DNA of 56,911 nucleotides from IMG/VR virus record IMGVR_UViG_3300023179_000128, positions 1-56,911 of that record. One strand, given 5' to 3'. The number at the start of each line of letters is the position of its first letter. Positions within the stretch are counted from its first letter, which is position 1. Both the position numbers and the translations under genes were made by a program. This document shows positions 9,479 to 38,814 of the stretch, piece after piece. The notes below the pieces were generated by a model. That model was not told the origin of the DNA. It saw only the letters and a program-made list of their open reading frames with translations, and did no database searches. The DNA is from a virus.

Positions 9479-9484
9479 TAAGTT

Positions 9485-10762
9485 ATGAAACCATTATTAT
9501 TTATAAGTTGTCCAGTAGAGACAATGTCCGGTTATGGAGCAAGATCAAGAGATATTATTAAAGCTATTTTAAAGTATGATAAATATGATGTTAAAATTAT
9601 TTCACAACGTTGGGGTAATACATCATATAATGCTTTAGATTTAAATAATCCAGAAGATAAACAATTGTATGATTTAATTTGGAGACAACCACAACTGCCT
9701 AAACAACCAGATGTATGGATTCAAATCACTGTACCAAATGAATTTCAACCAGTAGGAAAATATAATATTGGTATTACAGCTGGTATTGAAACAACAGTAT
9801 GTGATCCAAGTTGGTTAGAAGGTATTAATAGAATGAATTTAACATTAGTGTCATCTAATCATGCTAAACAAGTATTTGAACAATCAACATTTGAAAAACG
9901 TAATCAGCAAACTCAACAAGTTGAAGCAGTTATCAAATTAGAGAAACCAGTAGAAGTATTATTTGAAGGAGTTGATTTAAATAAATATTTTCATATATCT
10001 GATTCTGAATTAGAAGAAACTGATTTAGTATTATCATTAGATAAAATTAAAGAAGATTTTTGTTTCTTATTTGTTGGCCACTGGCTACAAGGACAAATAG
10101 GCGAAGATAGAAAGAATGTAGGTTATATGCTTAAAGCGTTCTTAGAAACATTTAAAAATAAAAAAATAGCACCTGCTTTAATTTTAAAAACATCTCAAGT
10201 AACTAATTCTATTATGGATAGAGATGAGATATTAAAGAAAATAGATGCTGTTAAACAAACAGTTAAAGGTGACTTACCTAACATTTACTTAATACATGGT
10301 GATTTAGAAGATAAGGATATAAATGATTTATATAACCACGGTAAAGTAAAAGCAATGGTATCATTAACTAAAGGTGAAGGATTTGGAAGACCATTACTTG
10401 AATTTAGTTTAAGTAAAAAACCAATTATAGCTAGTAATTGGAGTGGTCATTTAGATTTCTTGAATTTAGAATTCACTGTTCTAGTAGGTGGATCATTGAC
10501 TCCAGTTCATCAGTCAGCTCAATCTCAAAATATGATATTAGCTGAGTCACAATGGTTTACCCCAAATGATGCTAGTGTAGCTGATGCTTTTAAAAATGTT
10601 TATAATGATTATAAAAAATATTTTGAACTAGCTAAACGTCAAGCACATCATGCTAAAACAAATTTCTCATTTGATGAAATGGCTAAGGTATTAAATAATA
10701 TATTTGAAACAAAAATACCTAAACAAGTAGAATTAAAATTACCTAAACTTAAAAAATTATAA
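9485..10762 (+). CDS. GT-B glycosyltransferase (group 1)
   Basis: The 425-aa protein begins with PLLFISCPVETMSGYGARSRD, a glycine-rich acceptor loop common in GT4 enzymes. Its C-terminal donor domain has LTKGEGFGRPLLEFSLSKKP, the EGFGxPxxE signature, followed by ASNWSGHLDF. The gene starts 6 bases after the previous glycosyltransferase with an AAGTTATG context. The two proteins have the same fold but clearly different sequences, so they probably add different residues. Cytoplasmic enzyme of the glycan cluster. Confidence 0.87.
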   Translation: MKPLLFISCPVETMSGYGARSRDIIKAILKYDKYDVKIISQRWGNTSYNALDLNNPEDKQLYDLIWRQPQLPKQPDVWIQITVPNEFQPVGKYNIGITAGIETTVCDPSWLEGINRMNLTLVSSNHAKQVFEQSTFEKRNQQTQQVEAVIKLEKPVEVLFEGVDLNKYFHISDSELEETDLVLSLDKIKEDFCFLFVGHWLQGQIGEDRKNVGYMLKAFLETFKNKKIAPALILKTSQVTNSIMDRDEILKKIDAVKQTVKGDLPNIYLIHGDLEDKDINDLYNHGKVKAMVSLTKGEGFGRPLLEFSLSKKPIIASNWSGHLDFLNLEFTVLVGGSLTPVHQSAQSQNMILAESQWFTPNDASVADAFKNVYNDYKKYFELAKRQAHHAKTNFSFDEMAKVLNNIFETKIPKQVELKLPKLKKL

Positions 10763-10763
10763 A

Positions 10764-11192
10764 ATGGAAGATAAATTAACAACATGTTCTAGATGTGAAT
10801 CAGATGCTTGCTATGAACATAACCATCAAGGTATAACAATATGGAGCTGCATGGGTTGTGGTTTTACAACTAATGAATTAATGATTGATGAAAGTGAATT
10901 AGTTAAAGCAACTGAAGAAGTAATGCCTGAGTTATATAAAGATCTTAGATTCATAGATTATAAAAATCAAGTATGGTATCCAACAGTTGTTAATATTGAA
11001 GATAAAGGTACTGTATTTATAAATGGTACTACTAAAGAAAATTGGGGTTGGGCGGGAATTAAAGCAATAGAAACAACAGAAGAAGAAAAAGAAAAATTTA
11101 AAGGAGCTAAGTTTAAATCAGATCCTAAAACATTAAAAATGTTCGATAAAAAATCATTTGATGAAGCTTGTTCTTATATTGGATTAATTTAA
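10764..11192 (+). CDS. Hypothetical protein with zinc-ribbon-like N-terminus
   Basis: The 142-aa protein has CSRCESDAC near residues 8-16 and CMGCGF near residues 29-34, a likely zinc-binding ribbon. An acidic linker and a C-terminal region rich in aromatic residues and lysine follow (NWGWAGIK). It lies one base after a glycosyltransferase and 10 bases before the next, so it is in the cluster, yet nothing links it to sugar chemistry. Conserved phage protein of unknown role. Confidence 0.7.
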   Translation: MEDKLTTCSRCESDACYEHNHQGITIWSCMGCGFTTNELMIDESELVKATEEVMPELYKDLRFIDYKNQVWYPTVVNIEDKGTVFINGTTKENWGWAGIKAIETTEEEKEKFKGAKFKSDPKTLKMFDKKSFDEACSYIGLI

Positions 11193-11202
11193 AAATACAG
11201 TT

Positions 11203-11829
11203 ATGACAACAATTAGTTTTGCAATTACAACTTGTAATGAACATATTGAGTTAGAACGACTATTAAAACAAATAATCTCAATCATCAAACCAGGTGATGA
11301 AATAATAGTTCAACTAGACAATACAGCTACTCCTAAAGTAAAAGAAGTAGCTGAAAAATATAATATTGGTTATAAATTTGAATACCATAGGATATATGCC
11401 TCATTGAATGGTGATTTTGCTACATTTAAAAATAATTTAAAAAAACATTGTACACGTGATTGGATTTTCTTTATTGATGCTGATGAATTTTTAGGAGATG
11501 ATTTAGCTAATAATATTCATGAAATATTAGATGTAAATCATAATATTGTAGATGTAATAGCAGTACCTAGAATTAATACAGTTGAAGGACTAACTCGGAA
11601 TCATATTGATAAATGGAGATGGTTTGTAGATGATAATAATTGGATTAATTACCCAGATTATCAAACTCGCATATGTTCTAACAAACCAGAAATAAATTGG
11701 GTAAATAAAGTACATGAACATTTATCAGGTTGGAAAACAATAGCTAATTTACCTCATGGGTATGACTTAATACATCCTAAAACAATTGATAAACAAGAAA
11801 AACAAAATAATTTTTATGACACATTATAA
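11203..11829 (+). CDS. Family 2 (GT-A) glycosyltransferase
   Basis: The 208-aa protein has the GT2 N-terminus (ISFAITTCNE with a following EIIVQLDN) and the metal-binding DxD in IFFIDADEF. Only the catalytic domain is present, as in the SunS/WaaE-like small GT2 enzymes. Its 3' end overlaps the reductase start by 14 bases, a translational coupling signal. The donor is unknown; rhamnose and galactofuranose are suggested by the neighbours. Confidence 0.87.
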   Translation: MTTISFAITTCNEHIELERLLKQIISIIKPGDEIIVQLDNTATPKVKEVAEKYNIGYKFEYHRIYASLNGDFATFKNNLKKHCTRDWIFFIDADEFLGDDLANNIHEILDVNHNIVDVIAVPRINTVEGLTRNHIDKWRWFVDDNNWINYPDYQTRICSNKPEINWVNKVHEHLSGWKTIANLPHGYDLIHPKTIDKQEKQNNFYDTL

Positions 11830-12709
11830 TAGAATTTTTATAACTGGGGCTAATGGAATGTTAGGTACAACATTAAAAAGTCTTATTGATAATAATAAAC
11901 TTTTTTTAACTGATAAAGAATTATCTGAAAATATAGTTTACTGCGATATCAGAGATTTAAATCATACATCCCAACTAGTCAAAACTTACCAACCAGATAT
12001 TATTTTAAATTTTGCTGCTATAGTAGATTTAGAATATGCTGAACAAGAAAAAGATGATTGTTATTTAACAAATACAATAGCCGCTATTAATTTATTTAAT
12101 TTATCTAAAGAATTAAATATACCATATGTGTTTATTAGTACAGCTGGTATATTTGGAGATGATAAAGAATTTTACACTGAAGAAGATAAACCATATCCAC
12201 TTAGTGCTTATGGTAAAAGTAAATATTATACTGAACAACTAATGCTAAATCAAAACTATGAAAAGTATTGGATATTCAGAGCAGGATGGATGATGGGAGG
12301 TGGACCAGATAAAGATAAAAAATTTGTTAATAAGATAATGAAACAAATTAACTCAGGAGCTAAAGAATTATATGTGGTGGATGATAAATTAGGAGTACCT
12401 ACTTATACTAAAGACTTCGCTCAATCTATTTTGAGACATATAGAAGAAGACTTACCTTATGGTTTATATAATATGGTTAGTCAAGGTGAAGCAAGTAGAT
12501 ATGACACAGCAGTTGCTATTAAAGAACATCTTAATTTAGACATTACAATTCATAAAGTGACAAGTGATCATTTTAAACAAGAATATTTTGCTCATAGACC
12601 ATATTCAGAAAAATTAATTAATAATAAATTAAATAAGCTAAATAAGAATTATATGAGAGAATGGAAGGTGTGTTTGCATGAATATTTAGATGAACATTTT
12701 AAAAAATAA
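11816..12709 (+). CDS. dTDP-4-dehydrorhamnose reductase-like enzyme (RmlD family)
   Basis: I start the gene at 11816 (MTHYNRIFITG) because this puts the Rossmann strand at the N-terminus; upstream codons overlap the GT2 gene. The 297-aa short-chain reductase has GANGMLG (residues 11-17), a STAGIFGD block and the catalytic Tyr132-x3-Lys136 pair (AYGKSK). RmlD-type enzymes use NAD(P)H to make dTDP-L-rhamnose. The sugar-binding loops are not diagnostic, so another 4-keto-reductase is possible. RmlA/B/C are not in the window. Confidence 0.83.
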   Translation: MTHYNRIFITGANGMLGTTLKSLIDNNKLFLTDKELSENIVYCDIRDLNHTSQLVKTYQPDIILNFAAIVDLEYAEQEKDDCYLTNTIAAINLFNLSKELNIPYVFISTAGIFGDDKEFYTEEDKPYPLSAYGKSKYYTEQLMLNQNYEKYWIFRAGWMMGGGPDKDKKFVNKIMKQINSGAKELYVVDDKLGVPTYTKDFAQSILRHIEEDLPYGLYNMVSQGEASRYDTAVAIKEHLNLDITIHKVTSDHFKQEYFAHRPYSEKLINNKLNKLNKNYMREWKVCLHEYLDEHFKK

Positions 12710-12712
12710 ATA

Positions 12713-13813
12713 ATGTACGATTACTTAATAGTTGGAGCTGGGTTGTATGGACTTGTTAATGCTCGTTTATTAACAGATGCTGGTAAGAAATGTTTAGTTA
12801 TAGACAAACGAGATCATATTGGGGGAAATTGTCACACTGAAGATGTAGATGGAATTAAAGTTCATAAATATGGTCCTCATATTTTTCATACTGATATTCC
12901 TGAAGTATGGGAGTTTATTAATAAGTATACTACTATTAATCATTTTTCATGTAGACCTAAATTACGTTATGAGGATAAAATATACTCATTTCCTATTAAC
13001 TTATTAACATTACATCAAGTATATGGAGTACTTACTCCAGATGAAGCTAAAGTTAAAATTGATGAAGTAACTAAACCATATAAAGAATTATACCCTGAGC
13101 CTAAAAATGCTTATGAGTATGGAATGCAATTAGTAGGACCAGAATTATATTCTATATTCTATGAAGGATATCTTAAAAAACAATGGAAAAAAGATCCTAA
13201 AGATATACCAGCAGATATTTTACAAAGACAAATATTCAGATTAAAATTTGAAGATAGTTACTATCATCATTCACATCAAGGTATTCCTAATTATAATTTA
13301 TTGTTTGATAACTTAAGTAAAAATATTGATGTGATTACTGATGTTGATTATTTAAAAGATAAGCAATATTGGGACAGTAAAACTAAAGAAATAATTTATA
13401 CAGGTCCTATAGATAGATATTTTAATTATCAATTTGGTCCTTTAGAATATCGTTCATTAATCTTTAAACATGAACGCTTAGATATACCTGATTACCAAGG
13501 TACATTCATGATGAGTTACCCAGAACCAAAATATGATTTTACTAGAATTATAGAACATAAACATTTTGAATTTGGAACTCAGCCATTCACTGTCATAACA
13601 AAAGAATATCCTGATGATTGGAGTATAGGTAAAGAATCATATTACCCAGTCAATGATGAAAAAAATCAATTAATATATAATAAGTACTTTGAATTAATTA
13701 AAAATGAATCTAATGTTTATTTTGGAGGACGAATGGGAAGTTATAAATATCTAAATATGGATGAAACAATAGATTTAGCTTTAAGATTATCAAGTCAAAT
13801 ATTAAACAAATGA
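12713..13813 (+). CDS. glf: UDP-galactopyranose mutase
   Basis: The 366-aa protein starts with the FAD-binding GAGLYG (residues 8-13) and continues with DKRDHIGGNCHTE and YGPHIFHT, both hallmarks of UDP-galactopyranose mutase, plus the F-x-NL-TLHQVYG and QWKKDPKDIPADI blocks. Length equals the bacterial enzyme (about 367-385 aa). It converts UDP-galactopyranose to UDP-galactofuranose using reduced FAD. With the epimerase at 16318 the cluster could supply galactofuranose to the local glycosyltransferases. Highly confident. Confidence 0.95.
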   Translation: MYDYLIVGAGLYGLVNARLLTDAGKKCLVIDKRDHIGGNCHTEDVDGIKVHKYGPHIFHTDIPEVWEFINKYTTINHFSCRPKLRYEDKIYSFPINLLTLHQVYGVLTPDEAKVKIDEVTKPYKELYPEPKNAYEYGMQLVGPELYSIFYEGYLKKQWKKDPKDIPADILQRQIFRLKFEDSYYHHSHQGIPNYNLLFDNLSKNIDVITDVDYLKDKQYWDSKTKEIIYTGPIDRYFNYQFGPLEYRSLIFKHERLDIPDYQGTFMMSYPEPKYDFTRIIEHKHFEFGTQPFTVITKEYPDDWSIGKESYYPVNDEKNQLIYNKYFELIKNESNVYFGGRMGSYKYLNMDETIDLALRLSSQILNK

Positions 13814-14772
13814 AAAAAATAGTATTCCAATCACAAATGGGTTTTGTAGGTCAAATACCTAGAACTCATACTAATATGAGAGTAGAATTTGCTCAAATGT
13901 GTGCTTTACAAGCAGATCATTATCCATTATTATTTGATACTAGTAAAGTAACTAAAAAATATGATATAGCAGTTCTATTAATACCTAAAACTCCAGCTGA
14001 TAGAGATAGATTATATAATGTAGATGTAGTAGCTGAGGCAAGGAAAATAGCTGATAAAGTGTTGTTTATGCAAGAGGGTCCAAGTTGGATTTATCAAGAC
14101 TTACCTGTACATCAACAAATATGGCATTATAATTTATTAACCAGTGTAGATGGTATTTTGACTGAGAATGAAACTGATATACCTTATTTCAAAGGTATTA
14201 ATTCTAAAGTATCAATTCAAGATATACCTTCATTAATGATTGAGGATAGTGTTTTAAATGCTAGACTAATTGAGAAACAAGATAAGATTATAATTGGAGG
14301 TAATTTTACTAGATGGTATGGTGGATTTGATAGTTATGTTATTGCAACTGAATTTGATTTACCTATATATTGTCCTAGTATGGGACGTAAACAACCAAAT
14401 GAAGAACAATTAGTTACTCATTTACCTTACTTACAATGGAATGAATGGATTAGTGCTTTAGCAGAGTTTAAATATGCTATACATTTAATGCCTACAATAG
14501 CGGCGGGCACATTTGCTATGAACTGTGGTTTCTTAGGCATACCATGTATTGGATATAATGAAACTGATACTCAAAGAAAAATACACCCTAAGTTAAGTGT
14601 TGGTTTAGGTGATTTAGAATCAGCTAGAAAATTAGCTATTGAATTAAAAAATAATGAATCGTTCTATAAAGAATGTTCTATTGATGCTAAAGATAATTAC
14701 AAAAATTTAATTAGTGAAGCTCAATTTTTAAGTAAAATGGAAAATTACTTTAATCAGTTATGCAAAAACTAA
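13810..14772 (+). CDS. GT-B-like protein of the glycan cluster, unassigned
   Basis: The 320-aa protein looks two-domained. The N-terminal half has alternating hydrophobic strands (IAVLLIPKTP, KVLFMQEGPSW), the C-terminal half has a donor-site-like block (HLMPTIAAGTFAMNCGFLGIPCIGYNE) ending in a helical tail. This recalls divergent GT-B transferases but lacks a clear E-x7-E motif. It overlaps glf by 4 bases and the next gene by 13 bases. A glycosyltransferase role is inferred from fold pattern and context. Confidence 0.65.
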   Translation: MKKIVFQSQMGFVGQIPRTHTNMRVEFAQMCALQADHYPLLFDTSKVTKKYDIAVLLIPKTPADRDRLYNVDVVAEARKIADKVLFMQEGPSWIYQDLPVHQQIWHYNLLTSVDGILTENETDIPYFKGINSKVSIQDIPSLMIEDSVLNARLIEKQDKIIIGGNFTRWYGGFDSYVIATEFDLPIYCPSMGRKQPNEEQLVTHLPYLQWNEWISALAEFKYAIHLMPTIAAGTFAMNCGFLGIPCIGYNETDTQRKIHPKLSVGLGDLESARKLAIELKNNESFYKECSIDAKDNYKNLISEAQFLSKMENYFNQLCKN

Positions 14773-15437
14773 ATATAATAGTAGCTATAGATGATACACA
14801 CCCAGAACCAAATTGGGGATGTGAAGGTGATCAATCAGTAGAGTATTTAAAAGAACTAAATAAAGAATTTGGATGTAAATTTGTTTTATTTACTCCATCC
14901 AACTACCATAATAAATTTCCTTTATCACAACATAAAGATTGGGTTGATTATTGGTTACAATATAATTGGATTGAATTAGCAGGACATGGTCATTACCATA
15001 AACGTACTGTTGTAGACCCAGGTTGTCGTGAATGTGAGTTTGTAGAATTAGATTATAATCAAGCTAAAGCTAGGCTACAAGATAGTTTAAATGAATGGAA
15101 ACAAGCAGGATATGTACCAACAGGATGGAGAATGCCAGGTTGGTTAGCTACACAAGGTAGTTTTGACGCTGTTAGTGAATTATTTGGTTACACAGCAATT
15201 CATTCGTATCTTAATGATAATATGAAAGTAAATAATAGAATATTCAAAGGTGAAAGTTCAATCCATAATGATGAATCAGTAACAATAATTGATAATACAA
15301 TTTATTTTCAATCTCATATATGGGGTGAATATAATAAAAATAATTGGACTGAAGAAAATTATTTAAACTTTAGAACCATATTACTCTATTTAAAAGATAA
15401 TTTTAAATTAGAATATAAACTATTTAATGAATTATGA
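14760..15437 (+). CDS. Polysaccharide deacetylase-like protein (NodB homology type)
   Basis: The 225-aa protein has IDDTHP at residues 10-14 (Asp11/Asp12, the base and metal Asp), HGHYH at 76-80 (metal His pair) and a GWRMPGW block, matching motifs 1-3 of carbohydrate esterase family 4 deacetylases. Such enzymes remove N-acetyl groups from glycans using a divalent metal. No signal peptide is present, so it would act on cytoplasmic sugar intermediates. It overlaps both neighbours. Family-level call is good, substrate unknown. Confidence 0.82.
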   Translation: MQKLNIIVAIDDTHPEPNWGCEGDQSVEYLKELNKEFGCKFVLFTPSNYHNKFPLSQHKDWVDYWLQYNWIELAGHGHYHKRTVVDPGCRECEFVELDYNQAKARLQDSLNEWKQAGYVPTGWRMPGWLATQGSFDAVSELFGYTAIHSYLNDNMKVNNRIFKGESSIHNDESVTIIDNTIYFQSHIWGEYNKNNWTEENYLNFRTILLYLKDNFKLEYKLFNEL

Positions 15438-16321
15438 GAAATATAATTTTTGTAGGGCATAGTACATCTGGTGCTTGTAAAATGAGAGGTGTACAGACTG
15501 TACAAGCATTAGAAAAATATAGTAGTTTAAAACCATCTTATATATTAGGAAATATATTTGTAAAAGAAATTAACACAATCAAAAATTCAGTAATTATTTT
15601 TGTTGGTGAGCCATTACATATAGTTGATATACAAATGTTACAAACATTACATAAAAATAATAATATTCTAATATATGATGTGATTGATAATTTTTGTTTT
15701 GAACATACTAATTTATTTTATAATAATGACTTAATAGATCATTATCAGAATTTAGATGTTATTATACATACTAATTTATATTCTAAAAATAAATTTGAAG
15801 AGTATTTACGTGATGTTAAACATACTGTTATTCCTCATCAGTGGGATATAGATAATGAAAACTTATTAGTACCTAATATTACTAACACTAATATTGCTTC
15901 TTATATAGGAGGTTTAAGTGGTTTTCAATTAGATAAAAATAAATTAATAGGTTATGTTGATGTTTTTGATAATCCATTAGATGGAAATAACCAACAATCA
16001 AAATATAATATACATAGTAGTTTTAGATCAAATTTATCATTAGATTATTTTTTTAAACCATGTACTAAATTAGCTATATCATCTTGTTTTGGAGCATTAT
16101 TAATAACTAGTAGAGAAGAATCAGTGGTTGATATTGTAGGTGAATCTTATGAGTTTTATGTTAATAATGAAGATGATTTTAAAAATAAAATAGATAAAAT
16201 TAGAGGAATGAGTATGAATCAAATTCATCATTATAGAGATAATATGTTGAATATTAAAGAATATTTAAGTCCTAAATCTACAGTTAATAGATATAATAAA
16301 TTAATAAAAAAATATATATGA
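15434..16321 (+). CDS. Glycosyltransferase-like protein of the glycan cluster, unassigned
   Basis: The 295-aa protein has a short N-terminal Rossmann-like strand with KMRGVQTVQAL and a C-terminal half ending KLAISSCFGALLITSREES, then a Val-Gly-Glu-rich strand and a helix, like the donor domain of GT-B enzymes. No strict signature is visible. It overlaps the deacetylase and epimerase genes by 4 bases each, so it is translated as part of the cluster. It is more AT-rich than its neighbours (Asn/Ile/Lys-rich). Confidence 0.65.
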   Translation: MRNIIFVGHSTSGACKMRGVQTVQALEKYSSLKPSYILGNIFVKEINTIKNSVIIFVGEPLHIVDIQMLQTLHKNNNILIYDVIDNFCFEHTNLFYNNDLIDHYQNLDVIIHTNLYSKNKFEEYLRDVKHTVIPHQWDIDNENLLVPNITNTNIASYIGGLSGFQLDKNKLIGYVDVFDNPLDGNNQQSKYNIHSSFRSNLSLDYFFKPCTKLAISSCFGALLITSREESVVDIVGESYEFYVNNEDDFKNKIDKIRGMSMNQIHHYRDNMLNIKEYLSPKSTVNRYNKLIKKYI

Positions 16322-17238
16322 AAGTATTAGTAACAGGTGGTGCAGGTTTTATAGGCTCCAATTTAGTAGATGCCTTAATAGATAAAGGGTATGAGGTAGG
16401 AATTATAGATGATTTTTCTACTGGTAAACGAAGTAATGTTAATCCAAAAGCAACATTATATGAAGTTAGTTTACATAAAGCATCAACAGATGAGTTAGTA
16501 AGTATATTATCAGGTTATGAAAAAGTATTTCACACTGCAGCATTTGCTCGTGTACAACCAAGTATTACAGACCCAATCTCATTTAATGATGTAAATGTGA
16601 ATGGTACTCTTAATTTATTATTTGCTTGTTATAAAGCAGGAGTGAAAAAAGTAATTTACAGCGCTTCAAGTTCAGCGTATGGTGATACTAAAATATTCCC
16701 AACTCCAGAAACAGCAGGTACTGATCCAATGTCACCTTATGGCTTACAAAAATATATTGGAGAACAATATTGTAGAATGTTTAGTTTAGTATATGGTTTA
16801 GACACTGTTAACTTAAGATATTTTAATATATATGGTCCTAGAATGAATTTTGAAGGTGCATATAAAACAGTTATCGGAGTATTTGGACAACAAAAATCAT
16901 TAGGTAAACCACTTACAATAACTAATGATGGTGAACAAAGTAGAGATTTTACTCATGTTTATGATGTTGTAGATGCTAATATTAAAGCGGCTGAATATGA
17001 GACTAAATTAAATGGAGAAGTATTTAATATTGGAAATGGTAGAGATATTACTATTAATAAAATAGCTGATTTAATTAGTGATCAAAAAATATACACTGGT
17101 GATGTTTTAGAACCTAGAAAAAATAATGCTGACAATACTAAAGCAAAACAAATATTAGGTTGGGAACCAAAATATAATGTTGAAGATTTTATATTAAATG
17201 GGTTAGATGAAGAAGTAAAAAAACTAAATATAGTATAA
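16318..17238 (+). CDS. NAD-dependent UDP-sugar epimerase/dehydratase
   Basis: The 306-aa extended short-chain dehydrogenase has GGAGFIGSNL (residues 7-16), DDFSTG after the second strand, SASSSAYGD and the catalytic Tyr141-x3-Lys145 pair. Later blocks NLRYFNIYGPR and RDFTHVYDV are typical of UDP-glucose 4-epimerase and related enzymes. A GalE-like activity would provide UDP-galactose for the mutase at 12713. Other UDP-hexose epimerases share these motifs. Overlaps neighbours at both ends. Confidence 0.88.
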   Translation: MKVLVTGGAGFIGSNLVDALIDKGYEVGIIDDFSTGKRSNVNPKATLYEVSLHKASTDELVSILSGYEKVFHTAAFARVQPSITDPISFNDVNVNGTLNLLFACYKAGVKKVIYSASSSAYGDTKIFPTPETAGTDPMSPYGLQKYIGEQYCRMFSLVYGLDTVNLRYFNIYGPRMNFEGAYKTVIGVFGQQKSLGKPLTITNDGEQSRDFTHVYDVVDANIKAAEYETKLNGEVFNIGNGRDITINKIADLISDQKIYTGDVLEPRKNNADNTKAKQILGWEPKYNVEDFILNGLDEEVKKLNIV

Positions 17239-18413
17239 TGAATAAAATAACATTTGTATTACCAAGTAGAAATAATTTAGAGTTTTTACAACTAGCTTAT
17301 AAATCAATACGTGACTTAGAAACTAAACATGAAGTATTAGTTTTAGATGATGCTAGTACGGACGGTACTCAAGAATGGATTAAATCACTTAATGATGAGG
17401 ATTTAATTACTTATTACAACCCAGGACCAGAACGTATTGGTATTGTAGGTATGTTTGATAAAGGTATTGAAATGGCTAGAACAGAAATTATATTTGCATT
17501 TCACGCTGATATGGTCGCGTGTAAGGATCTAGATAAAAATATTTTAAAACATCTTAAACCATGTACAGTAGTAAGTGCGACTAGGATAGAACCACCATTA
17601 CATCCAGCGGGACTAGAAAAAATAACTGTTGATTTTGGAGTTGAAGCTGATCAATTTGATTTTAGTAAGTGGTATAATGAAAGTGAATCATTAAAACAAG
17701 ATAAGACAACAGAAGGTATATTTGCTCCTTGGTGTATGTACAAATCAGATTATTTAGCTGTAGGCGGACATGATGAATTATTTGCTCCACAATCAAAAGA
17801 AGATAGTGATTTATTTAATCGTTTTGTTTTAAATGGTTATCAAATACTTCAATCATGGGATGCTTTAGTTTATCACTTTACTAGTCGTGGTAGTCGATTT
17901 AATAAACATGCTGGTGGAGCAGCTGGTAAGAATAGTGAGGAATGGCTTTACACAACAAATAAAAACGCTAGAAACTTTATTCGTAAATGGGGACATTTTG
18001 TTAAACATGATGCTTTTATGAAACCAATTATACCTCACAAGTATAATATTGGATTTGTAGTTCACACTTGTAATTTAGAAAAATTAGCTGTTTTAGAACC
18101 ATGGTGTAGTACAATTTATATTGAAGATACAGATGTATTAACATCACACTATTTAGATTTAGAACAACAACATACAACAATAAACTTAGCTGATAAAATT
18201 AAAGTAATAGGATATAGTGCTCCTGACAATGATATAGTAGTTGAGTTTGAAACTACCAAATTAAACCAAGAATCATTTAATATATTAATGCAACTACCAG
18301 AAATAATTGCTGAATCAGGTGAGATAGGAACATTTGAATTAGATATATTTAAAATTACTATTAACAATATGACTACTTATGAACATGATCTTATCCATAT
18401 TTATAACAAATAA
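17238..18413 (+). CDS. Family 2 glycosyltransferase with C-terminal extension
   Basis: The 391-aa protein has the GT-A core: FVLPSRNNLEFL, LVLDDASTDGTQEW, a FHADMV metal site and GGHDELFAPQSKEDSDLF with the catalytic Asp/Glu. Residues about 270-391 are a separate acidic domain without known motif. This is the last sugar gene of the cluster and overlaps the epimerase stop by one base. It would transfer one sugar in the cytoplasm. Function of the extension unknown. Confidence 0.87.
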   Translation: MNKITFVLPSRNNLEFLQLAYKSIRDLETKHEVLVLDDASTDGTQEWIKSLNDEDLITYYNPGPERIGIVGMFDKGIEMARTEIIFAFHADMVACKDLDKNILKHLKPCTVVSATRIEPPLHPAGLEKITVDFGVEADQFDFSKWYNESESLKQDKTTEGIFAPWCMYKSDYLAVGGHDELFAPQSKEDSDLFNRFVLNGYQILQSWDALVYHFTSRGSRFNKHAGGAAGKNSEEWLYTTNKNARNFIRKWGHFVKHDAFMKPIIPHKYNIGFVVHTCNLEKLAVLEPWCSTIYIEDTDVLTSHYLDLEQQHTTINLADKIKVIGYSAPDNDIVVEFETTKLNQESFNILMQLPEIIAESGEIGTFELDIFKITINNMTTYEHDLIHIYNK

Positions 18414-29945: not shown

Positions 29946-30044
29946 AGTCAAGTAGCGGAATGGTAAACGCAGGTCGTAGGTAGCACCACTCACATCCAGC
30001 CTTAAACGTGGTGAGTAATACAGGTTCGAATCCTGTCTTGACTA
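29946..30044 (+). tRNA. tRNA-like gene, Leu-like but atypical
   Basis: AGTCAAG (29946-29952) and CTTGACT (30037-30043) form a perfect 7-bp acceptor stem. The D-arm GCGGAATGGTAAACGC and T-arm ACAGG-TTCGAAT-CCTGT (5-bp, 7-nt loop) are canonical, and discriminator A is present. The D-arm resembles tRNA-Leu. The total of 99 nt is long, and the 48 nt between the arms give no clean 5-bp anticodon stem with U33. CTTAAAC would offer anticodon UAA but with a poor stem. It may be a degenerate or interrupted tRNA, or a tRNA mimic. Confidence 0.6.
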
Positions 30045-31794: not shown

Positions 31795-31843
31795 TTATAT
31801 AAGAAGAAACGGGAGAAAAGCGGAACAGGAATAATAGAATTGA

Positions 31844-31870
31844 TTGACCGCAACTGTTTTGATAAATTTA
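31844..31870 (+). promoter_or_regulatory. Downstream promoter of second tandem pair
   Basis: TTGACCGCAAC at 31844, TAAATTTA at 31863-31870 (offset 19 nt), then AATATAAATAAA before the 31883 ATG. Confidence 0.7.
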
Positions 31871-31882
31871 AATATAAATAAA

Positions 31883-32722
31883 ATGACAAAAAATATGAAC
31901 ACAAGTATGAAAAAACGTGGTAGACCAAGTAAAAAACAAGTAACTGAGTATCAAGTATCAGTTCCAACATTAATTGATTTTGATATTGTTAAGTTGAACA
32001 ACTTAGATATTGATCCACGAATGATGGAAACAATGAAAAGTGGTATGTCAATTGATGATTTGATTTCACACGAAGGTGGTATACCATGTGCAACTAATAT
32101 TATGTGTATAGGTGATCCAGGAGTTGGTAAAACAACTGTGTTATTGGATTTGTTAGCTGGTGTTCAGAATCGTGGTAGAAAATGTTTGTTCATTTCAGGT
32201 GAAATGGGTAAAAAACAAATGTTCAAATACACACAACGTTTTCCACAATTCGGTAACATTCAAACATTGTTTATGTCTGATTATTTAGAACATAATACTA
32301 AAGATGTAATTGAACAAGTTATGAATATGGGTTGGGATTTGATTTTGATTGATAGTATAGCTGAGATTATTGAAGGTGTTCGTGATGACAATAAATGGGA
32401 TCGTAAGCAAGCTGAATCATGGTTAGTTGATTTGTGTGTTAAGAATAATAAAGGTGAAAATAAACAAGATAAGTTCACATCGTATTTATTGATTCAACAA
32501 GTTACTAAACAAGGTGATTTTGTAGGTTCAAATAAATTAAAACACATGACAGATGCAATGATGGAAATGCGTAGAAGAAGTGATCGTGATGGTGGTGGAA
32601 CATATATGAATTTTATGAAGAATAGAAATGGTAATGTGGATATGCATTTTAGTTATGAACTACAAAACGATTACATTTACTACGGTACAATATCAAAATC
32701 TGAAGTTGGGGAAGATGAATAA
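31883..32722 (+). CDS. RecA/RadA-like ATPase with N-terminal RGRP motif
   Basis: The 279-aa P-loop protein has Walker A GDPGVGKTT (residues 77-85), a switch region with FISGEMGKKQM and Walker B WDLILIDS (Asp157), matching the RecA/RadA/DnaB-like ATPase core; the GEMG and the QVTKQGDFVGSNKLKHM block are close to RadA/Sms. An extra N-terminal KKRGRPSKK motif may add AT-hook DNA binding. It could be a recombinase or branch-migration helper. Start is 31883 since upstream codons are promoter. It is under tandem promoters. Confidence 0.83.
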   Translation: MTKNMNTSMKKRGRPSKKQVTEYQVSVPTLIDFDIVKLNNLDIDPRMMETMKSGMSIDDLISHEGGIPCATNIMCIGDPGVGKTTVLLDLLAGVQNRGRKCLFISGEMGKKQMFKYTQRFPQFGNIQTLFMSDYLEHNTKDVIEQVMNMGWDLILIDSIAEIIEGVRDDNKWDRKQAESWLVDLCVKNNKGENKQDKFTSYLLIQQVTKQGDFVGSNKLKHMTDAMMEMRRRSDRDGGGTYMNFMKNRNGNVDMHFSYELQNDYIYYGTISKSEVGEDE

Positions 32723-32724
32723 TC

Positions 32725-32751
32725 TTCACCTCAGCTCTTTAATTAAATTTA
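32725..32751 (+). promoter_or_regulatory. Early/middle-type promoter (divergent)
   Basis: TTCACCTCAG at 32725 and TAAATTTA at 32744-32751, offset 19 nt, then TTATATAAATAAA. The G of TTGAC is replaced by C. Confidence 0.5.
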
Positions 32752-32775
32752 TTATATAAATAAAAATAAAAAAAT

Positions 32776-32937
32776 ATGCAAGTAAAAGAATCAAAAACAA
32801 ATTGGCACTTCAGGATTAGTTTATTTAAATCATGTCTTCGAATTATGGCTGGAGTGACAATGATTAGGGGTGAATTAGTAATATCAGGAGTATTGTTTAT
32901 ATTAGCTGAATTATTAGGTATTATTGAAGAACTTTAA
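32776..32937 (+). CDS. Small hydrophobic protein (53 aa)
   Basis: A 53-aa product with an aliphatic C-terminal segment (ELVISGVLFILAELLGII) preceded by a basic stretch (FKSCLRIM). Possibly membrane-associated. It starts 8 codons after a promoter-like site and is followed by the 32950 gene. Not recognised. Confidence 0.5.
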   Translation: MQVKESKTNWHFRISLFKSCLRIMAGVTMIRGELVISGVLFILAELLGIIEEL

Positions 32938-32949
32938 AAAATAGAAATT

Positions 32950-33174
32950 ATGTATACGAAAAAAGATTTTAAATGTGTTGATGGATTTTATTACATAGGA
33001 AATGTAATTGATGTGGATGGTAATCCGTGGGTTGAAGAAGAACAACTTGAATTGATTATAATGGAACTAAATAATGGTTCTGAAATTGAAGAAATGAAAT
33101 TAGAAAAAAGTGTTGCTTTTGTTCAGTTTACAAACAACATAAACGATTCATTAAATTATATACACTTAAATTAA
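32950..33174 (+). CDS. Hypothetical acidic protein (74 aa)
   Basis: A 74-aa mostly beta then acidic helical protein (VDGNPWVEEEQLELIIMEL). No recognisable motif. Starts 12 bases after the preceding stop and ends 8 before the next gene. Confidence 0.55.
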   Translation: MYTKKDFKCVDGFYYIGNVIDVDGNPWVEEEQLELIIMELNNGSEIEEMKLEKSVAFVQFTNNINDSLNYIHLN

Positions 33175-33182
33175 TTACAACT

Positions 33183-34301
33183 ATGAATATAAAAATGAAC
33201 AAGGTATTGCCTGTTATTATTGAACAGCCTTACACTAAAAACACTCCAGAATGGAGAGTTCAAAACTGGTGGAGTTGGGAAAAGTATTTTATTGAAGAAG
33301 TAGAGGCTAATAAAATCTATACTTTGATTGACTTGATTAAGTCACAACCTAAAATAACACCTAAAAAAGGAGATATTATCTATGCTTCTAAAGCAAGTGA
33401 AATACCACGTTTTAAACTTAAAGAGTTTATCAAGGATAATAACTTAAAAAAGACATCTAGAGTTGGAATGGCTAGTGTAGTTATAATTAATAAAGGATAT
33501 TTTAATGAGTTAATTAGTAAATTAAAACGTGATGAATGTAATTTTATTAAAGAAGATTTCATGGATGTTATTATAAAAAAGAGTAAAAATAATTTAAGTG
33601 AAGGTGTTTATAACATTTATAAAAATGCTATTGATAAAAATAAAGTTGGATTTGTTAGACAGGATACCAATCAGTTAAAAGATCTTTTAAAGAAATACCC
33701 AAACCTACTTAATGAGTATACTAATAATACTTTTAAATTAAAAGGAATATCAGTTGATCTTTATCGTGAAAATAGATTGTTAGAGTTATTAAACACTATT
33801 GTTGATAATGAGGTACTTATACAAAGCGGAAAAATGAAATTTGTATTTGATGAAGAGTTATTTGTTGAGTTGAATAAAGAAGGAATTGAACTGGATGATG
33901 ATTATTTAAAAACACTCCGTGATATGCTATTCAGTTCTGATAAATCAAATGTTAAGTTAGGTTTTGAAATGATGTCTAATCTAGTAATTGACCAACCAAC
34001 ACTTTTATCAATGTCATTTTTGTTGAATGAACTATATCATACAACTAATTTTAGACCAAGTTATTATGTATCGTCTAATTCAAATTTAAAGAGTTTATTG
34101 AAGGTATTTAAGACAAAAGGTATACGTTGGGAAAGTGATTGGAAGACATTTGGTACTGGATTGAGAATAAATTTTAAAGATGGTAAGGAAGGAGAAATTG
34201 TTAAGAAGTTTTTGTTAGACAATATTAACCGTGAATTTAAATTAAGTAATTCAGCCGCTGAGAGTTTAGTTGATATTGTTTTTACGACCGAGGCTCAATA
34301 A
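33183..34301 (+). CDS. Unknown protein (372 aa), upstream of the VWA/MoxR pair
   Basis: A 372-aa soluble protein with no recognised domain. It contains an N-terminal Trp-rich segment (WRVQNWWSWEKYF), an RVGMASVVIINKG strand, central long helices and a C-terminal alpha/beta region (FRPSYYVSSNSN; LLDNINREFKLS). No Walker, metal or membrane motif seen. It is immediately upstream of the zincin-VWA gene, in the same strand and with a small gap, so it may be the third partner of the MoxR-VWA system. The sequence is rapidly diverging. Confidence 0.7.
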   Translation: MNIKMNKVLPVIIEQPYTKNTPEWRVQNWWSWEKYFIEEVEANKIYTLIDLIKSQPKITPKKGDIIYASKASEIPRFKLKEFIKDNNLKKTSRVGMASVVIINKGYFNELISKLKRDECNFIKEDFMDVIIKKSKNNLSEGVYNIYKNAIDKNKVGFVRQDTNQLKDLLKKYPNLLNEYTNNTFKLKGISVDLYRENRLLELLNTIVDNEVLIQSGKMKFVFDEELFVELNKEGIELDDDYLKTLRDMLFSSDKSNVKLGFEMMSNLVIDQPTLLSMSFLLNELYHTTNFRPSYYVSSNSNLKSLLKVFKTKGIRWESDWKTFGTGLRINFKDGKEGEIVKKFLLDNINREFKLSNSAAESLVDIVFTTEAQ

Positions 34302-34309
34302 TTAAATTT
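34283..34309 (+). promoter_or_regulatory. Early/middle-type promoter (divergent)
   Basis: ACGACCGAGG at 34283 and TAAATTTA at 34302-34309, offset 19 nt, then TATAAATAAAA. It overlaps the end of the 33183 gene and precedes the zincin-VWA gene. Confidence 0.45.
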
Positions 34310-34325
34310 ATATAAATAAAAAGAT

Positions 34326-35567
34326 ATGATAAATGATATGCACGGCGACATCGCCAAACACGCCAAAACGTTAATGTTCAAGGAACCGTTTTATGGATTG
34401 TTCCTGATTAGTTTGAATAAAGAAATTAGTGATACTGTTTCAACTGCTTGTGTTGCTAAAGATGGTATTAACACTAAATTAGTTATTAGTCCTAAATTTT
34501 GGGAGACAATATCTGATAGTTGTAAAGTAGCTGTTTTGAAACATGAATTGTTGCATATAGCGTTTAAACACTTACAAATGTTTGATGAGTTTACAGAAAA
34601 AGAATTGTTGAATGTAGCGGCTGATTTAGAAATTAATCAGTATATTGAAGACACTTATAAAGACGAAACTTGGGAGGGCTTAGAAATTGATAAAGCACCT
34701 TGGGCTGCTCTTAATTTACCTATTAAAGCGGGTACTAGAAAATATTATGAGTTGATTTTACAAGAATGTAAAAATAATCCGAATGGAGATGTTTGTAAGT
34801 TTTTAGACGCTATGAAAGATGCAAATGGTGATGGTGAGTCAAGAAAAATTACATTAGGTGATGGTACTGAAGTTGAAGTAAAAGCATCTCATGAGTTTTG
34901 GAAACAGTTTGAGAACATGGATGAGGCAGAAAAAAAATTGATGGAAAAACAAATTGAACATCAACTTAAAGACACTGCTGACCAAGTACAAAGACAAAGA
35001 GGACATATACCCGGTGAATTGAAAGAATTGATTGATAGTTTATATGTGAGTGAAGAGCCAGTACTTGATTGGAGAGCTTATTTGAGACGTTTTAATGGTA
35101 TGGCTAGTAAAGTTTATACTAAGAAAACAAGACGTAAACCAAATAAACGTTTTTATGGTAATCCAGCTCTTAAAATCAAACAAAAGAAAAACACATTAGT
35201 TGCTATTGATACATCAGGTTCAGTTAGTAAAGATGATTTGAAAGAATTTTTAAGTGAAATTCATCATATCTGGAAGACAGGAACTCAAATGACTGTAGTT
35301 GAGTGTGATGCTGCAATTGGTCGTGTTTATGAATATAAAGGTAAAACACAAGAAGCATTAGAAGTAACAGGACGTGGTGGAACAAGTTATGAACAAGTAA
35401 TAAGATATCTTAAAGATCATAAAGACAAATATCAGAATTTGATTTACTTAACTGATGGTGAATGTGAGGTTGATACACAACCATGTAAACCAACTTTATG
35501 GGTTCATTGTTCAGGAAGAAAAATTAATGAGTCATTACCAGGTGCTAAGGTACAAATTAATTCATAA
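34326..35567 (+). CDS. Zincin plus VWA domain protein (DUF2201-type)
   Basis: The 413-aa protein has an N-terminal metallopeptidase-like domain with HELLH (residues 73-77) and a downstream AADLE (candidate third ligand), and a C-terminal von Willebrand A-like domain with MIDAS residues Asp295-x-Ser-x-Ser299 (DTSGS), Thr353 (GGTSYE) and Asp377 (LTDGE). This N-terminal zincin + VWA architecture is known as DUF2201. Such proteins pair with MoxR-type AAA+ ATPases, which are encoded next here. Likely an ATP-dependent protein remodelling or quality-control module; no target known. Confidence 0.85.
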   Translation: MINDMHGDIAKHAKTLMFKEPFYGLFLISLNKEISDTVSTACVAKDGINTKLVISPKFWETISDSCKVAVLKHELLHIAFKHLQMFDEFTEKELLNVAADLEINQYIEDTYKDETWEGLEIDKAPWAALNLPIKAGTRKYYELILQECKNNPNGDVCKFLDAMKDANGDGESRKITLGDGTEVEVKASHEFWKQFENMDEAEKKLMEKQIEHQLKDTADQVQRQRGHIPGELKELIDSLYVSEEPVLDWRAYLRRFNGMASKVYTKKTRRKPNKRFYGNPALKIKQKKNTLVAIDTSGSVSKDDLKEFLSEIHHIWKTGTQMTVVECDAAIGRVYEYKGKTQEALEVTGRGGTSYEQVIRYLKDHKDKYQNLIYLTDGECEVDTQPCKPTLWVHCSGRKINESLPGAKVQINS

Positions 35568-35593
35568 TGACCTCGATTCTTAACTTAAATTTA
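35567..35593 (+). promoter_or_regulatory. Early/middle-type promoter
   Basis: ATGACCTCGA at 35567 and TAAATTTA at 35586-35593, offset 19 nt, then ATTATAAATTAA. It overlaps the VWA stop and precedes the MoxR gene. Confidence 0.6.
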
Positions 35594-35629
35594 ATTATAA
35601 ATTAATAACGCAAAAAAATAATAAAGGCT

Positions 35630-36820
35630 ATGGCAAAAACGTCGAAAAAAACAAACGCAAGTGTTTCATTAAATGTTAATGAACTAAAAGATTTCTTGAA
35701 ACACATTATTGACAACAACCGTTACTTACAAGAAAATAGTAAGCCAATGGTTAGTACAGAAGTAATTGGTGATTCAGGTATTGGTAAAACATCAGCTATT
35801 GTTCAGTTAGCAGATGAGTTAGGATTGAATTTCGTTAAATTGAACCTTGCACAAATTGAGGAAATTGGTGACTTGGTTGGTTTTCCAATTAGACAATTCC
35901 AAATGAATGAAGGTAAAAAAACTGAATGGGTAGATGAGAATAGTGTTGAAGATTATAGAAAGAAAGGTTTTGAATCAACTGGTCTAAACCGTATGAGTTA
36001 TTGTCCACCAGAATGGATTAGTGGAAAATCTAATGGGGGTATTTTATTACTGGATGACTGGAATAGAGCTGATATGAGGTTTATTCAAGCTGTAATGGAG
36101 CTAATTGATAGACAACAATATATAAGTTGGAAATTGCCTAAAGATTGGCATATTATTTTAACCGCCAATCCTGATAATGGAGATTATTTAGTTAACAGTA
36201 TTGACAACGCTCAAAAAACGAGGTTTATTAGTGTTAATTTGAAATTTGATCTTAAATGTTGGGGTAAATGGGCTGAACAGTCTAAACTAGATGGCCGTTG
36301 TATTAACTTTATGTTGATGCATCCGGAACTAGTAACTAAAGAAGTTAACAGTAGAAGTGTTAGTATGTTCTTTAATAGTATTAGTTCACTTAAATCGTTT
36401 GAGGAGTCATTACCACTAATTCAAATGATTGGAGAAGGTTCAGTTGGTAGTGAGTTTAGTACTTTGTTTACAATGTTCATTAATAATAAATTGGATAAGA
36501 TGATTTCACCAGAAAACATCATAACACAAGATGAACAATATGTTATGAATACACTTAAAGGATTAGTTGGTAAAGATAAAGCTTATAGAGCAGATATTGC
36601 CTCAACATTAGGTACAAGGGTTGCTAACTATTTAGAGTTCTATGCTAAAGAAAATGCGGTTGAAAAACCACTTATTGAACGTATAAGTAAAATTGTTACC
36701 GAGAAAATATTTGCTACGGATGTAAGTTATAATATGGTTAAATCAATTTATAATAGTAATCCAGGTAAATTTAAATTGATGATGTTGAATAAAGAATTAG
36801 TAAAATATATAACTAAATAA
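35630..36820 (+). CDS. MoxR-type AAA+ ATPase
   Basis: The 396-aa protein has Walker A GDSGIGKTS (residues 47-55), a MoxR-like Walker B GILLLDDWNRAD (Asp142-Asp143), sensor 1 LTANP (Asn180) and an arginine near residue 199 in AQKTRF. MoxR-family ATPases normally end Walker B with LDE-NRA; here Glu is replaced by Asp. These enzymes remodel partner proteins through the VWA protein. It follows the zincin-VWA gene and has its own promoter. Confidence 0.88.
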   Translation: MAKTSKKTNASVSLNVNELKDFLKHIIDNNRYLQENSKPMVSTEVIGDSGIGKTSAIVQLADELGLNFVKLNLAQIEEIGDLVGFPIRQFQMNEGKKTEWVDENSVEDYRKKGFESTGLNRMSYCPPEWISGKSNGGILLLDDWNRADMRFIQAVMELIDRQQYISWKLPKDWHIILTANPDNGDYLVNSIDNAQKTRFISVNLKFDLKCWGKWAEQSKLDGRCINFMLMHPELVTKEVNSRSVSMFFNSISSLKSFEESLPLIQMIGEGSVGSEFSTLFTMFINNKLDKMISPENIITQDEQYVMNTLKGLVGKDKAYRADIASTLGTRVANYLEFYAKENAVEKPLIERISKIVTEKIFATDVSYNMVKSIYNSNPGKFKLMMLNKELVKYITK

Positions 36821-36822
36821 TT

Positions 36823-37125
36823 ATGAAATTACAACTAACAAAAACAACAGAATTAGAATTAAACCGTCTTAATAATATATATGGAGATGAAAAGTCACCA
36901 GAATATGATTATTGGGATAAAATGTCTGAATTAGAAAGACTAATTACAGACGCAGGAATGTATGTTGAAGGAGCGTATGAAGAAAATATATTTAATGACT
37001 TAAATGAATGGTGTAGGATTGTAGGTCCTATGGAATATCAACAAACATATCTTAACACACATCCTAATGTTGTTAGAGAGAAAATTGATAGAATGCTAAG
37101 AGAAAATATAATTCAAATAGTATGA
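36823..37125 (+). CDS. Hypothetical protein (100 aa)
   Basis: A 100-aa product with charged helices and an early TELELNRLN pattern, ending in a basic hydrophobic segment. It overlaps the GIY-YIG-like gene by 4 bases, and lies 2 bases after the MoxR gene. No known domain. Confidence 0.62.
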   Translation: MKLQLTKTTELELNRLNNIYGDEKSPEYDYWDKMSELERLITDAGMYVEGAYEENIFNDLNEWCRIVGPMEYQQTYLNTHPNVVREKIDRMLRENIIQIV

Positions 37126-37616
37126 AACCGTTAAAGAAAATAACACATGAAGATGCTCACTTCTATAAAGTGTTAGACAGTAATAAATTATCACCAGAAC
37201 AAGTTTGCGACAAAGCCACAGCGTTCACTTTGACTCCTGACCCGGTTAATCCGGGTTGGGACTTAGTGACTTACTATCAAGATAGTCCCTTAGATAGAGA
37301 TGGCAATTTAGTTCCTACCGAGTATGTTTATGTTCTAGTAAACAAATCAATGCCAGACATGGTTAAAATAGGAATGACAGTACGTGAAGTAGAAGAACGA
37401 GCAAAAGAAATTTCAGGAGCAACAGGTGTACCTACTCCATGGATACCAATTTATTCATTTAAATGTTTTAGCTCTTATAAACTAGAACAAGAAATTCATG
37501 AACATTTAGATGCAGTTCGTGTATCAGGTAATCGTGAAATGTTTTATATGCATTCAAAAGATGCTATTAGTATCGTTAATCAGTTGGGCGTTAAATACAC
37601 TATATCCCCGCTTTAA
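37122..37616 (+). CDS. GIY-YIG-like nuclease domain protein (T5orf172/MUG113 type)
   Basis: The 164-aa protein has YVYVLVNKSMPDMVKIGMT (about residues 67-85), where the usual GIY and YIG motifs appear as YVYVL and KIGMT, followed by RAKEISGATGVPTPW and EQEIHEHL with a conserved Arg and Glu. This is the T5orf172/MUG113 variant of the GIY-YIG nuclease superfamily, common in phages. No intron or homing target is seen around it, so it is probably a free-standing nuclease or inactive binding domain. Confidence 0.78.
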   Translation: MKPLKKITHEDAHFYKVLDSNKLSPEQVCDKATAFTLTPDPVNPGWDLVTYYQDSPLDRDGNLVPTEYVYVLVNKSMPDMVKIGMTVREVEERAKEISGATGVPTPWIPIYSFKCFSSYKLEQEIHEHLDAVRVSGNREMFYMHSKDAISIVNQLGVKYTISPL

Positions 37617-38118: not shown

Positions 38119-38291
38119 GATATAAACAACCAGTCCAATATAAATTGGATCAATTAGAAAATATGTTAAACGGTTTTGGCTCTCGCTTCTCAGATCCTAA
38201 ATTTAATATTATGGAAGCTAAAGAAATGCTTTCAGTTATGAAAGATAAAATTGAAGAAATTAGATCATTGATCAATGGCGAAACTGAATAG
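38115..38291 (+). CDS. Hypothetical helical protein (58 aa)
   Basis: A 58-aa helical product with Leu/Met-rich pattern (QLENMLNGFG, MEAKEMLSVMKDKIEEIRSL). It overlaps the glutaredoxin by 4 bases (ATGA) and the nucleotidyltransferase-like gene by 17 bases. The tight overlaps on both sides support a real gene. Confidence 0.6.
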   Translation: MRYKQPVQYKLDQLENMLNGFGSRFSDPKFNIMEAKEMLSVMKDKIEEIRSLINGETE

Positions 38292-38814
38292 TAAATATAG
38301 AGATATAATTCAAACTATCCAGCTTAATCCTAAATTTATTTTAGGCGGCAGTTGTGCTTTACGTCTTTTAGATTTACTTGATCGTGAAACTGAAGATATA
38401 GATATTAACGTTACCCAGGCTTTAACTTTAGAAGATGTAAATATATTAGTTGAACAACATGGTTTCATTACTCCTAAAATAGAAGTAATAAATCAATCAA
38501 CTAATGAACTTGAAATACAACCACAACCACTTTCTCTATTGCCTAATTATCATCATATTAAATTAGAGAAAGATGGTGTTGTGATTGATATTTTTAATCA
38601 TGTAGAACTTGATAATAAAATATTAGGTGTTGAACCTAAAGACCAAATTATGGTTATTGATGGTATTAAAGTATTACACCCATTACTAGTCATTTTCTTT
38701 AAAACAAGATCTGTGTTATTAAAAACACCAGATAATATTACATATAAAGGAATAGAAGACCTAAAAACAATATTCACTAACCCAGATCAATTATTAAAAT
38801 ATAAGTTATGTTAA
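38275..38814 (+). CDS. Nucleotidyltransferase-like protein (short)
   Basis: The 179-aa protein has GGSCAL (residues 24-29) followed by EDIDIN (Asp41/Asp43) and a later IDIFN Asp near 104, the pol-beta nucleotidyltransferase pattern as in the 1879 product. It is shorter and lacks the coiled coil. It overlaps the HD-domain gene by 7 bases. Possible role in nucleotide signalling or RNA modification; not proven. Confidence 0.65.
   Translation: MAKLNSKYRDIIQTIQLNPKFILGGSCALRLLDLLDRETEDIDINVTQALTLEDVNILVEQHGFITPKIEVINQSTNELEIQPQPLSLLPNYHHIKLEKDGVVIDIFNHVELDNKILGVEPKDQIMVIDGIKVLHPLLVIFFKTRSVLLKTPDNITYKGIEDLKTIFTNPDQLLKYKLC

Follow-up and report, generated by a model that had tools for sequence, protein, structure and literature searches.

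Introduction

Pairs of a MoxR-type AAA+ ATPase and a zincin protein with a VWA domain are already described in phages. They correspond to gp24/gp25 of N4, are core genes of N4-like phages (PMC4193335, PMC7650795) and are spread through many unrelated large phages. In N4, both genes give middle transcripts (PMC4193335). A MoxR-metallopeptidase-VWA pair was also reported in group 2.2 jumbo phages, where a function in virion assembly and structural-protein processing was proposed (Iyer et al. 2021, PMC7824862). In Acidianus two-tailed virus (ATV), the MoxR-VWA proteins p618/p892 were assigned to extracellular tail development (PMC4124505), and bacteria contain MoxR-vWA ternary conflict systems with VMAP and iSTAND partners (Kaur et al. 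2020; PMC7159879). Here we analyze a MoxR-VWA pair encoded on a 56.9-kb contig of an uncultured virus (IMG/VR record IMGVR_UViG_3300023179_000128, positions 1 to 56,911; this whole stretch of 56,911 nucleotides [nt] is referred to as the window). The pair is accompanied by a gene for a 372-amino-acid (aa) protein, which we call U372. The three genes very probably form a functional unit, and we propose, with a probability of roughly 0.4, that its products serve in adaptor-guided remodelling and proteolysis during the replication phase.

The three genes are linked across divergent phages

The genes for U372 (33183 to 34301), the zincin-VWA protein (34326 to 35567) and MoxR (35630 to 36820) are adjacent, intact open reading frames (ORFs) on the plus strand, with intergenic gaps of 24 and 62 nt. 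An earlier reading made from the sequence alone (the sequence-only reading) had placed the triad at these positions and had set its co-occurrence in related phages as a test beforehand. For linkage, 44 distinct loci were counted in which MoxR is flanked on each side by 3.5 kb or more. The three genes stand together on one strand in 44/44 loci, a result that is partly built in, since the loci were fetched by similarity to MoxR or U372. The order is U372-VWA-MoxR in 20 loci, MoxR-U372-VWA in 12, VWA-MoxR-U372 in 11 and VWA-U372-MoxR in 1. The linkage survives these four orders, which argues for a shared function, and persists down to less than 20% U372 identity.

The pair also occurs without U372, as would be expected if an unrelated gene had come to lie beside a common MoxR-VWA pair by chance. 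By tblastn, the VWA protein has matches in 353 deposited phage records. In 17 deposited-phage loci from unrelated groups, searched again with profiles of both proteins, the pair was present in 15, and U372 was absent from all 17. Four different U372 members gave no tblastn match in deposited phages, and at an expectation value (E) of ≤0.01 no U372 was detected in the complete records of seven other phages, which covered N4-like phages, PBS1, crAss001, cyanophages and phages of Moorella and Vibrio. The gene 3′ of VWA in the Moorella phage and PBS1 was considered as a relative of U372 and rejected, as no relationship was detectable. We nevertheless regard a chance neighbourhood as scarcely credible, because the triad is conserved in dozens of independent contigs, through all four gene orders and at very low U372 identity.

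The MoxR and zincin-VWA proteins retain their active-site motifs

The VWA protein matches DUF2201_N (E 9e-17) and the VWA-like DUF2201 (E 4e-16), both above the gathering score, and belongs to phrog_1314; the VWA domain match extends to residue 399 of 413. Across 75 family members, the HELLH motif (H73/E74/H77) and the residues D295, S297, S299, T353 and D377 of the metal ion-dependent adhesion site (MIDAS) are at least 95% conserved. MoxR matches AAA_5 (PF07728) with 26.2 bits against a cut-off of 22 and phrog_1297 with E 3e-35, and its AAA_3 match falls below the cut-off of that family. In 91 MoxR members, Walker A (G47..GK53), Walker B (D142), N180 (sensor 1), R242 (sensor 2) and the presumed arginine finger R198 are at least 95% conserved. 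Thus, the MIDAS, HELLH, Walker A and arginine finger residues, which the sequence-only reading had described as intact, are highly conserved in their families. Together with U372, this MoxR-VWA engine is presumably active as a unit.

The label "HNH endonuclease" attached to phrog_1314 was rejected for the VWA protein: with E values of up to 0.1 allowed, Pfam gave no HNH domain, and zincin and VWA domains were found instead. Zincin-VWA proteins are widely mislabelled in this way, both in phrog_1314 and in RefSeq phage records (e.g., NC_027381 gp34). The PADLOC matches of MoxR to DolB (E 9e-5) and of the RadA-like neighbour to mad8 were judged generic. Two scans of bacterial genomes revealed no relatives of VWA or MoxR.

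A promoter-like repeat is common to VWA, MoxR and genes of replication and repair

A 52-nt repeat, composed of a TTGACC-like box followed by TAnnTTTA and TATAAATAA just 5′ of the start codon, occurs at 17 sites in the window, invariably on the plus strand; 0.2 copies are expected in shuffled sequence. The first site is at 3589, most lie between 19768 and 35605, and none was found past 36 kb or in the baseplate/tail region of the window. The repeat stands 5′ of genes for DNA ligase, a RecA/RadA-like ATPase (repeat at 31831 to 31882), VWA (34271 to 34322) and MoxR (35554 to 35605). Therefore, VWA and MoxR fall into one class with genes of replication and repair. Among 18 close relatives, the repeat is located 5′ of VWA in 14, of MoxR in 15 and of U372 in 3 cases; it was found 5′ of the RecA/RadA-like gene in 12/14, and 5′ of an HD-like gene, the T5orf172 gene and ORF 39860 in none of the 18 loci. 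Its shape resembles that of Bacteroidota host promoters. This strongly conserved repeat marks a set of genes of which MoxR is the last, and it is useful for delimiting the early/middle regulon of the phage. A "gp55" label for ORF 39860 had no PHROGs support, and no conclusion on late transcription was drawn from it.

These data bear on the published proposal that such pairs act in virion assembly. According to this proposal, a chaperone-protease would remodel and process structural proteins of the tail, baseplate or head, with U372 as a scaffold or adaptor. It was put forward for jumbo phages (PMC7824862), agrees with the tail development assigned to ATV p618/p892 (PMC4124505) and is in line with the start of the window's baseplate genes approximately 8 kb downstream of the triad. 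In contrast, VWA and MoxR share their promoter-like motif with the RecA-like ATPase and ligase genes, and the motif is missing from the baseplate/tail region. In addition, replication genes adjoin the pair in several phages: a Dda-type helicase and a DNA polymerase in N4-like phages, a PD-(D/E)XK exonuclease and a DNA polymerase after the triad in loci L098, L099, L175 and L176, and a DNA helicase in the Moorella phage. The middle transcription of N4 gp24/25 (PMC4193335) points in the same direction. The promoter evidence leads to the prediction of action in the replication phase, at odds with the published proposal of virion assembly, and we consider an assembly role less likely. Of the roles suggested in the sequence-only reading (dismantling of a host complex, capsid assembly or replication), promoter class and several neighbourhoods favour the replication phase, the others being less probable.

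U372 has a variable N-terminal half and a conserved C-terminal half

U372 has no match in Pfam, NCBIfam or PADLOC. Homologues were found in IMG/VR contigs only, at 23 loci with the single query; the family alignment matched 108 stretches. An AlphaFold2 model based on an alignment with 44 relatives reached a mean predicted local distance difference test score of 91. When the full-length fold was used to search the PDB, no match at E ≤0.001 was obtained (best 0.03). In a viral structure library, the matches at this threshold were only four uncharacterised phage proteins, among them a crAss-like protein and two proteins of one podovirus. A tandem pair of U372 paralogues, of which the first diverges more, is present in L098 (3874 to 6103) and in L099 (11266 to 13555); in BFVD, one podovirus likewise holds two U372-like proteins.

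Residues 58 to 135 are probably BRCT-like (tentative domain, residues 56 to 140, 33348 to 33602, plus strand). In a profile search, PARP1 BRCT domains were the top matches, with E values of 0.06 and 0.1, which are below significance. A Pfam BRCT match was obtained for 1/44 U372 members (E 0.0043). With a model of the isolated domain, 7 of the top 8 PDB fold matches were BRCT domains (MCPH1, PARP1), with individually insignificant E values of 0.4 to 1.1.

U372 is the fastest-evolving of seven genes compared. In 24 close relatives, its median identity is 55%, as compared with 91% for MoxR, 82% for VWA and about 80% for two nearby genes. The nonsynonymous divergence (dN) among close relatives is 0.66 for residues 1 to 57, 0.41 for 58 to 135, 0.79 for 136 to 215 and only 0.13 for 216 to 372. 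The synonymous divergence (dS), where computable, is 0.7 to 0.9, and dN/dS is near neutral in residues 136 to 215. This pattern of divergence fits a fixed C-terminal docking half and a changing N-terminal recognition half. If so, the almost invariably linked bipartite protein gives access to the function of the MoxR-VWA pair: its variable half could lead to the target, and its conserved half to the site of docking.

A helical hairpin of U372 is shared with small proteins encoded at the triad

The conserved half of U372 contains a helical hairpin of approximately 50 residues (233 to 284; 33879 to 34034, plus strand) with the consensus L..M..S.D..N..LA..IL.N.D. It came to light because small ORFs of other phages were matched by a model based only on U372. 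The hairpin is common to U372 and 42 distinct small ORFs, many of which are orthologues of each other; 40/42 map no further than 0.75 kb from a triad gene, typically in the interval that separates VWA from MoxR or immediately 5′ of MoxR. Five small hairpin proteins are encoded at the triad of L096, and the window phage has no copy besides U372. In a genome-wide search of 18 records, 12/18 hairpin copies outside U372 were located at the triad, a count to be read with the fact that the refined hairpin model was trained partly on small-ORF copies near the triad. The small proteins gave no credible family in Pfam or PHROGs scans. They are best interpreted as candidate alternative adaptors or regulators that use the same dock as U372.

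The hairpin copies could also act as competing inhibitors. This would agree with a scheme in which MoxR-VWA has U372 as its own dedicated substrate or inhibitor, comparable to a cognate target or an antidote, and such a protein could be both variable and always adjacent to the pair, as U372 is. Its conserved C-terminal half implies a fixed partner and its variable N-terminal half changing partners; since an adaptor fits this better, we regard the substrate or inhibitor scheme as improbable.

A role in counter-defence or host takeover has more in its favour. In this case, the variable half of U372 would spot a host or defence protein, which MoxR-VWA would dismantle or cleave. The rapid evolution of U372, the nearly neutral segment 136 to 215, the early/middle promoter class and the seemingly exchangeable small hairpin proteins, up to five at L096, would suit such an arms race, and MoxR-vWA proteins do occur in bacterial conflict systems (PMC7159879). 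Opposed to this, the engine is conserved and universal (44/44 loci), as a core function predicts, and the triad has no clear PADLOC match. Anti-defence genes are usually less conserved and less universal. Altogether, counter-defence seems unlikely as the function of the triad.

Proposed mechanism

We favour a scheme in which an adaptor guides remodelling, and probably proteolysis, during the replication phase. As in its family, MoxR would form an ATP-driven ring, and VWA, judging from its intact motifs, would dock on this ring via the MIDAS domain and bear the zincin active site. U372 may act as the substrate adaptor: its conserved C-terminal half would dock on the VWA-MoxR engine, and the rapidly diverging N-terminal half, which includes the BRCT-like module, would bind the target. 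The small hairpin proteins of other phages could be alternative adaptors or regulators. Made early or in the middle phase together with recombination and repair proteins, the machine would act on DNA replication, recombination or transcription complexes, as opposed to a late factor dedicated to assembly. The targets of the pair may differ from phage to phage, and adaptors would explain that. A more specific version, which we put forward tentatively and hold for somewhat less probable than the general scheme, is a ternary phage system whose engine works with exchangeable, hairpin-sharing adaptors, and in which U372, as the main adaptor, uses its rapidly evolving BRCT arm to pick replication, recombination or host proteins for ATP-driven disassembly and cleavage.

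Several observations weigh against this mechanism, in addition to the way in which the linked loci were collected. At locus L070 (1199 to 4656), which is too short on one side and thus outside the 44-locus count, MoxR is 83% identical to that of the window, VWA is only 47% identical, and U372 is not detectable. In jumbo phages and cyanophages (CBB, S-TIM5 and S-TIM54), virion structural genes adjoin the pair, as expected for an assembly function, and early synthesis of VWA and MoxR would not preclude a later role in assembly. Furthermore, none of the tests for a BRCT domain reaches significance by itself, and the high dN of the N-terminal half could stem from relaxed constraint or alignment error.

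L070 can be viewed as a natural swap, with the same MoxR, a different VWA and no U372. U372 was lost where VWA was exchanged, and this single case hints that U372 works with VWA.

Neighbouring genes and other features of the window

The sequence-only reading correctly recognized a RadA-like ATPase before the triad and a GIY-YIG-like protein after it. The RecA/RadA-like ATPase (31883 to 32722, plus strand) matches NCBIfam RadA with E 3e-13, the remainder of RadA being missing. Its start at 31883, as in the sequence-only reading, was preferred over the mechanical 31844 because the promoter-like repeat occupies 31831 to 31882. It shares the promoter class of VWA and MoxR as a neighbour, which does not imply membership in the machine, and is separated from U372 by 460 nt holding a 74-aa ORF. 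Downstream, a 100-aa ORF (36823 to 37125, plus strand), a counterpart of which only some relatives have, directly follows MoxR. The next gene (37122 to 37616, plus strand) matches the GIY-YIG relative T5orf172 (E 3e-16). The side of the triad that carries a T5orf172 gene varies among relatives (L003, L052, L055, L058, L066), which would be typical of a mobile gene. Because it is patchy and changes sides, it is not counted as core and is probably a passenger. The 100-aa ORF and a glutaredoxin gene were likewise rejected as members of the unit due to patchy occurrence or shifting position.

Two genes for nucleotidyltransferase-fold proteins (AbiEii-like, GxS..DxD) are present in the window, at 1879 to 2730 and at 38275 to 38814 (plus strand; a short protein with GGS..DIDI). 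Longer homologues adjoin the triad in 11/19 other divergent loci examined, and in Vibrio phage phiKT1024 a nucleotidyltransferase-like gene follows MoxR.

The virus appears to be partly T4-like, as it encodes a T4-type clamp loader as well as baseplate wedge proteins. A large cluster of glycosyltransferase and sugar-nucleotide enzyme genes (UDP-galactopyranose mutase-like, epimerases), recognized by eye from the translations, spans 8048 to 18413; surface or DNA glycosylation is a possible function. At 29946 to 30044, Rfam detected a 99-nt tRNA (46 bits) that was missed by ARAGORN; it may have a long variable arm or an insertion.

Comparison with known systems

The pair of the window and those of N4 (gp24/gp25) and jumbo phages consist of homologous MoxR and zincin-VWA proteins encoded by adjacent genes, with varying gene order. 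They differ in the third component: neither U372 nor a hairpin protein was detectable in N4-like, PBS1, jumbo, cyanophage, Moorella and Thermus loci. As far as our literature searches go, U372, its linkage to the pair and the shared hairpin are undescribed. The suggestion of an undescribed system in the sequence-only reading thus holds for U372 and the hairpin, whereas the pair itself was known (PMC4193335, PMC7650795, PMC7824862).

Several more distant systems share the principle of a MoxR ATPase with a VWA partner. RavA-ViaA, CbbQ-CbbO and their relatives, compared via family models only, likewise combine an AAA+ MoxR ring with a MIDAS VWA cofactor and remodel protein complexes; to our knowledge, they have no zincin and no third adaptor gene. 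In the PDB, the proteins closest in sequence to the MoxR of the window are midasins (Rea1), with similarity in the Walker A region only (E 2e-7); midasin differs as a single giant eukaryotic ribosome-assembly protein. ATV p618/p892, set side by side with our pair by description, are a virus-borne MoxR ATPase and an interacting VWA partner (PMC4124505). They differ in that no peptidase domain was reported (PMC7824862), p618 is virion-associated, and the virus is archaeal.

The bacterial conflict systems resemble the triad in combining MoxR and vWA with a distinctive third protein (PMC7159879). They differ in that the VWA protein of the window has an N-terminal zincin and no C-terminal effector. 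Among the 25 Pfam families listed for 44 U372 members, no VMAP or iSTAND-type match was seen. The small adaptor domains (effector-associated domains, EADs) shared by partners in these systems parallel the hairpin shared by U372 and the small proteins (PMC7159879), and this hairpin could be used to test in a simple way whether a phage AAA+ system employs modular adaptors.

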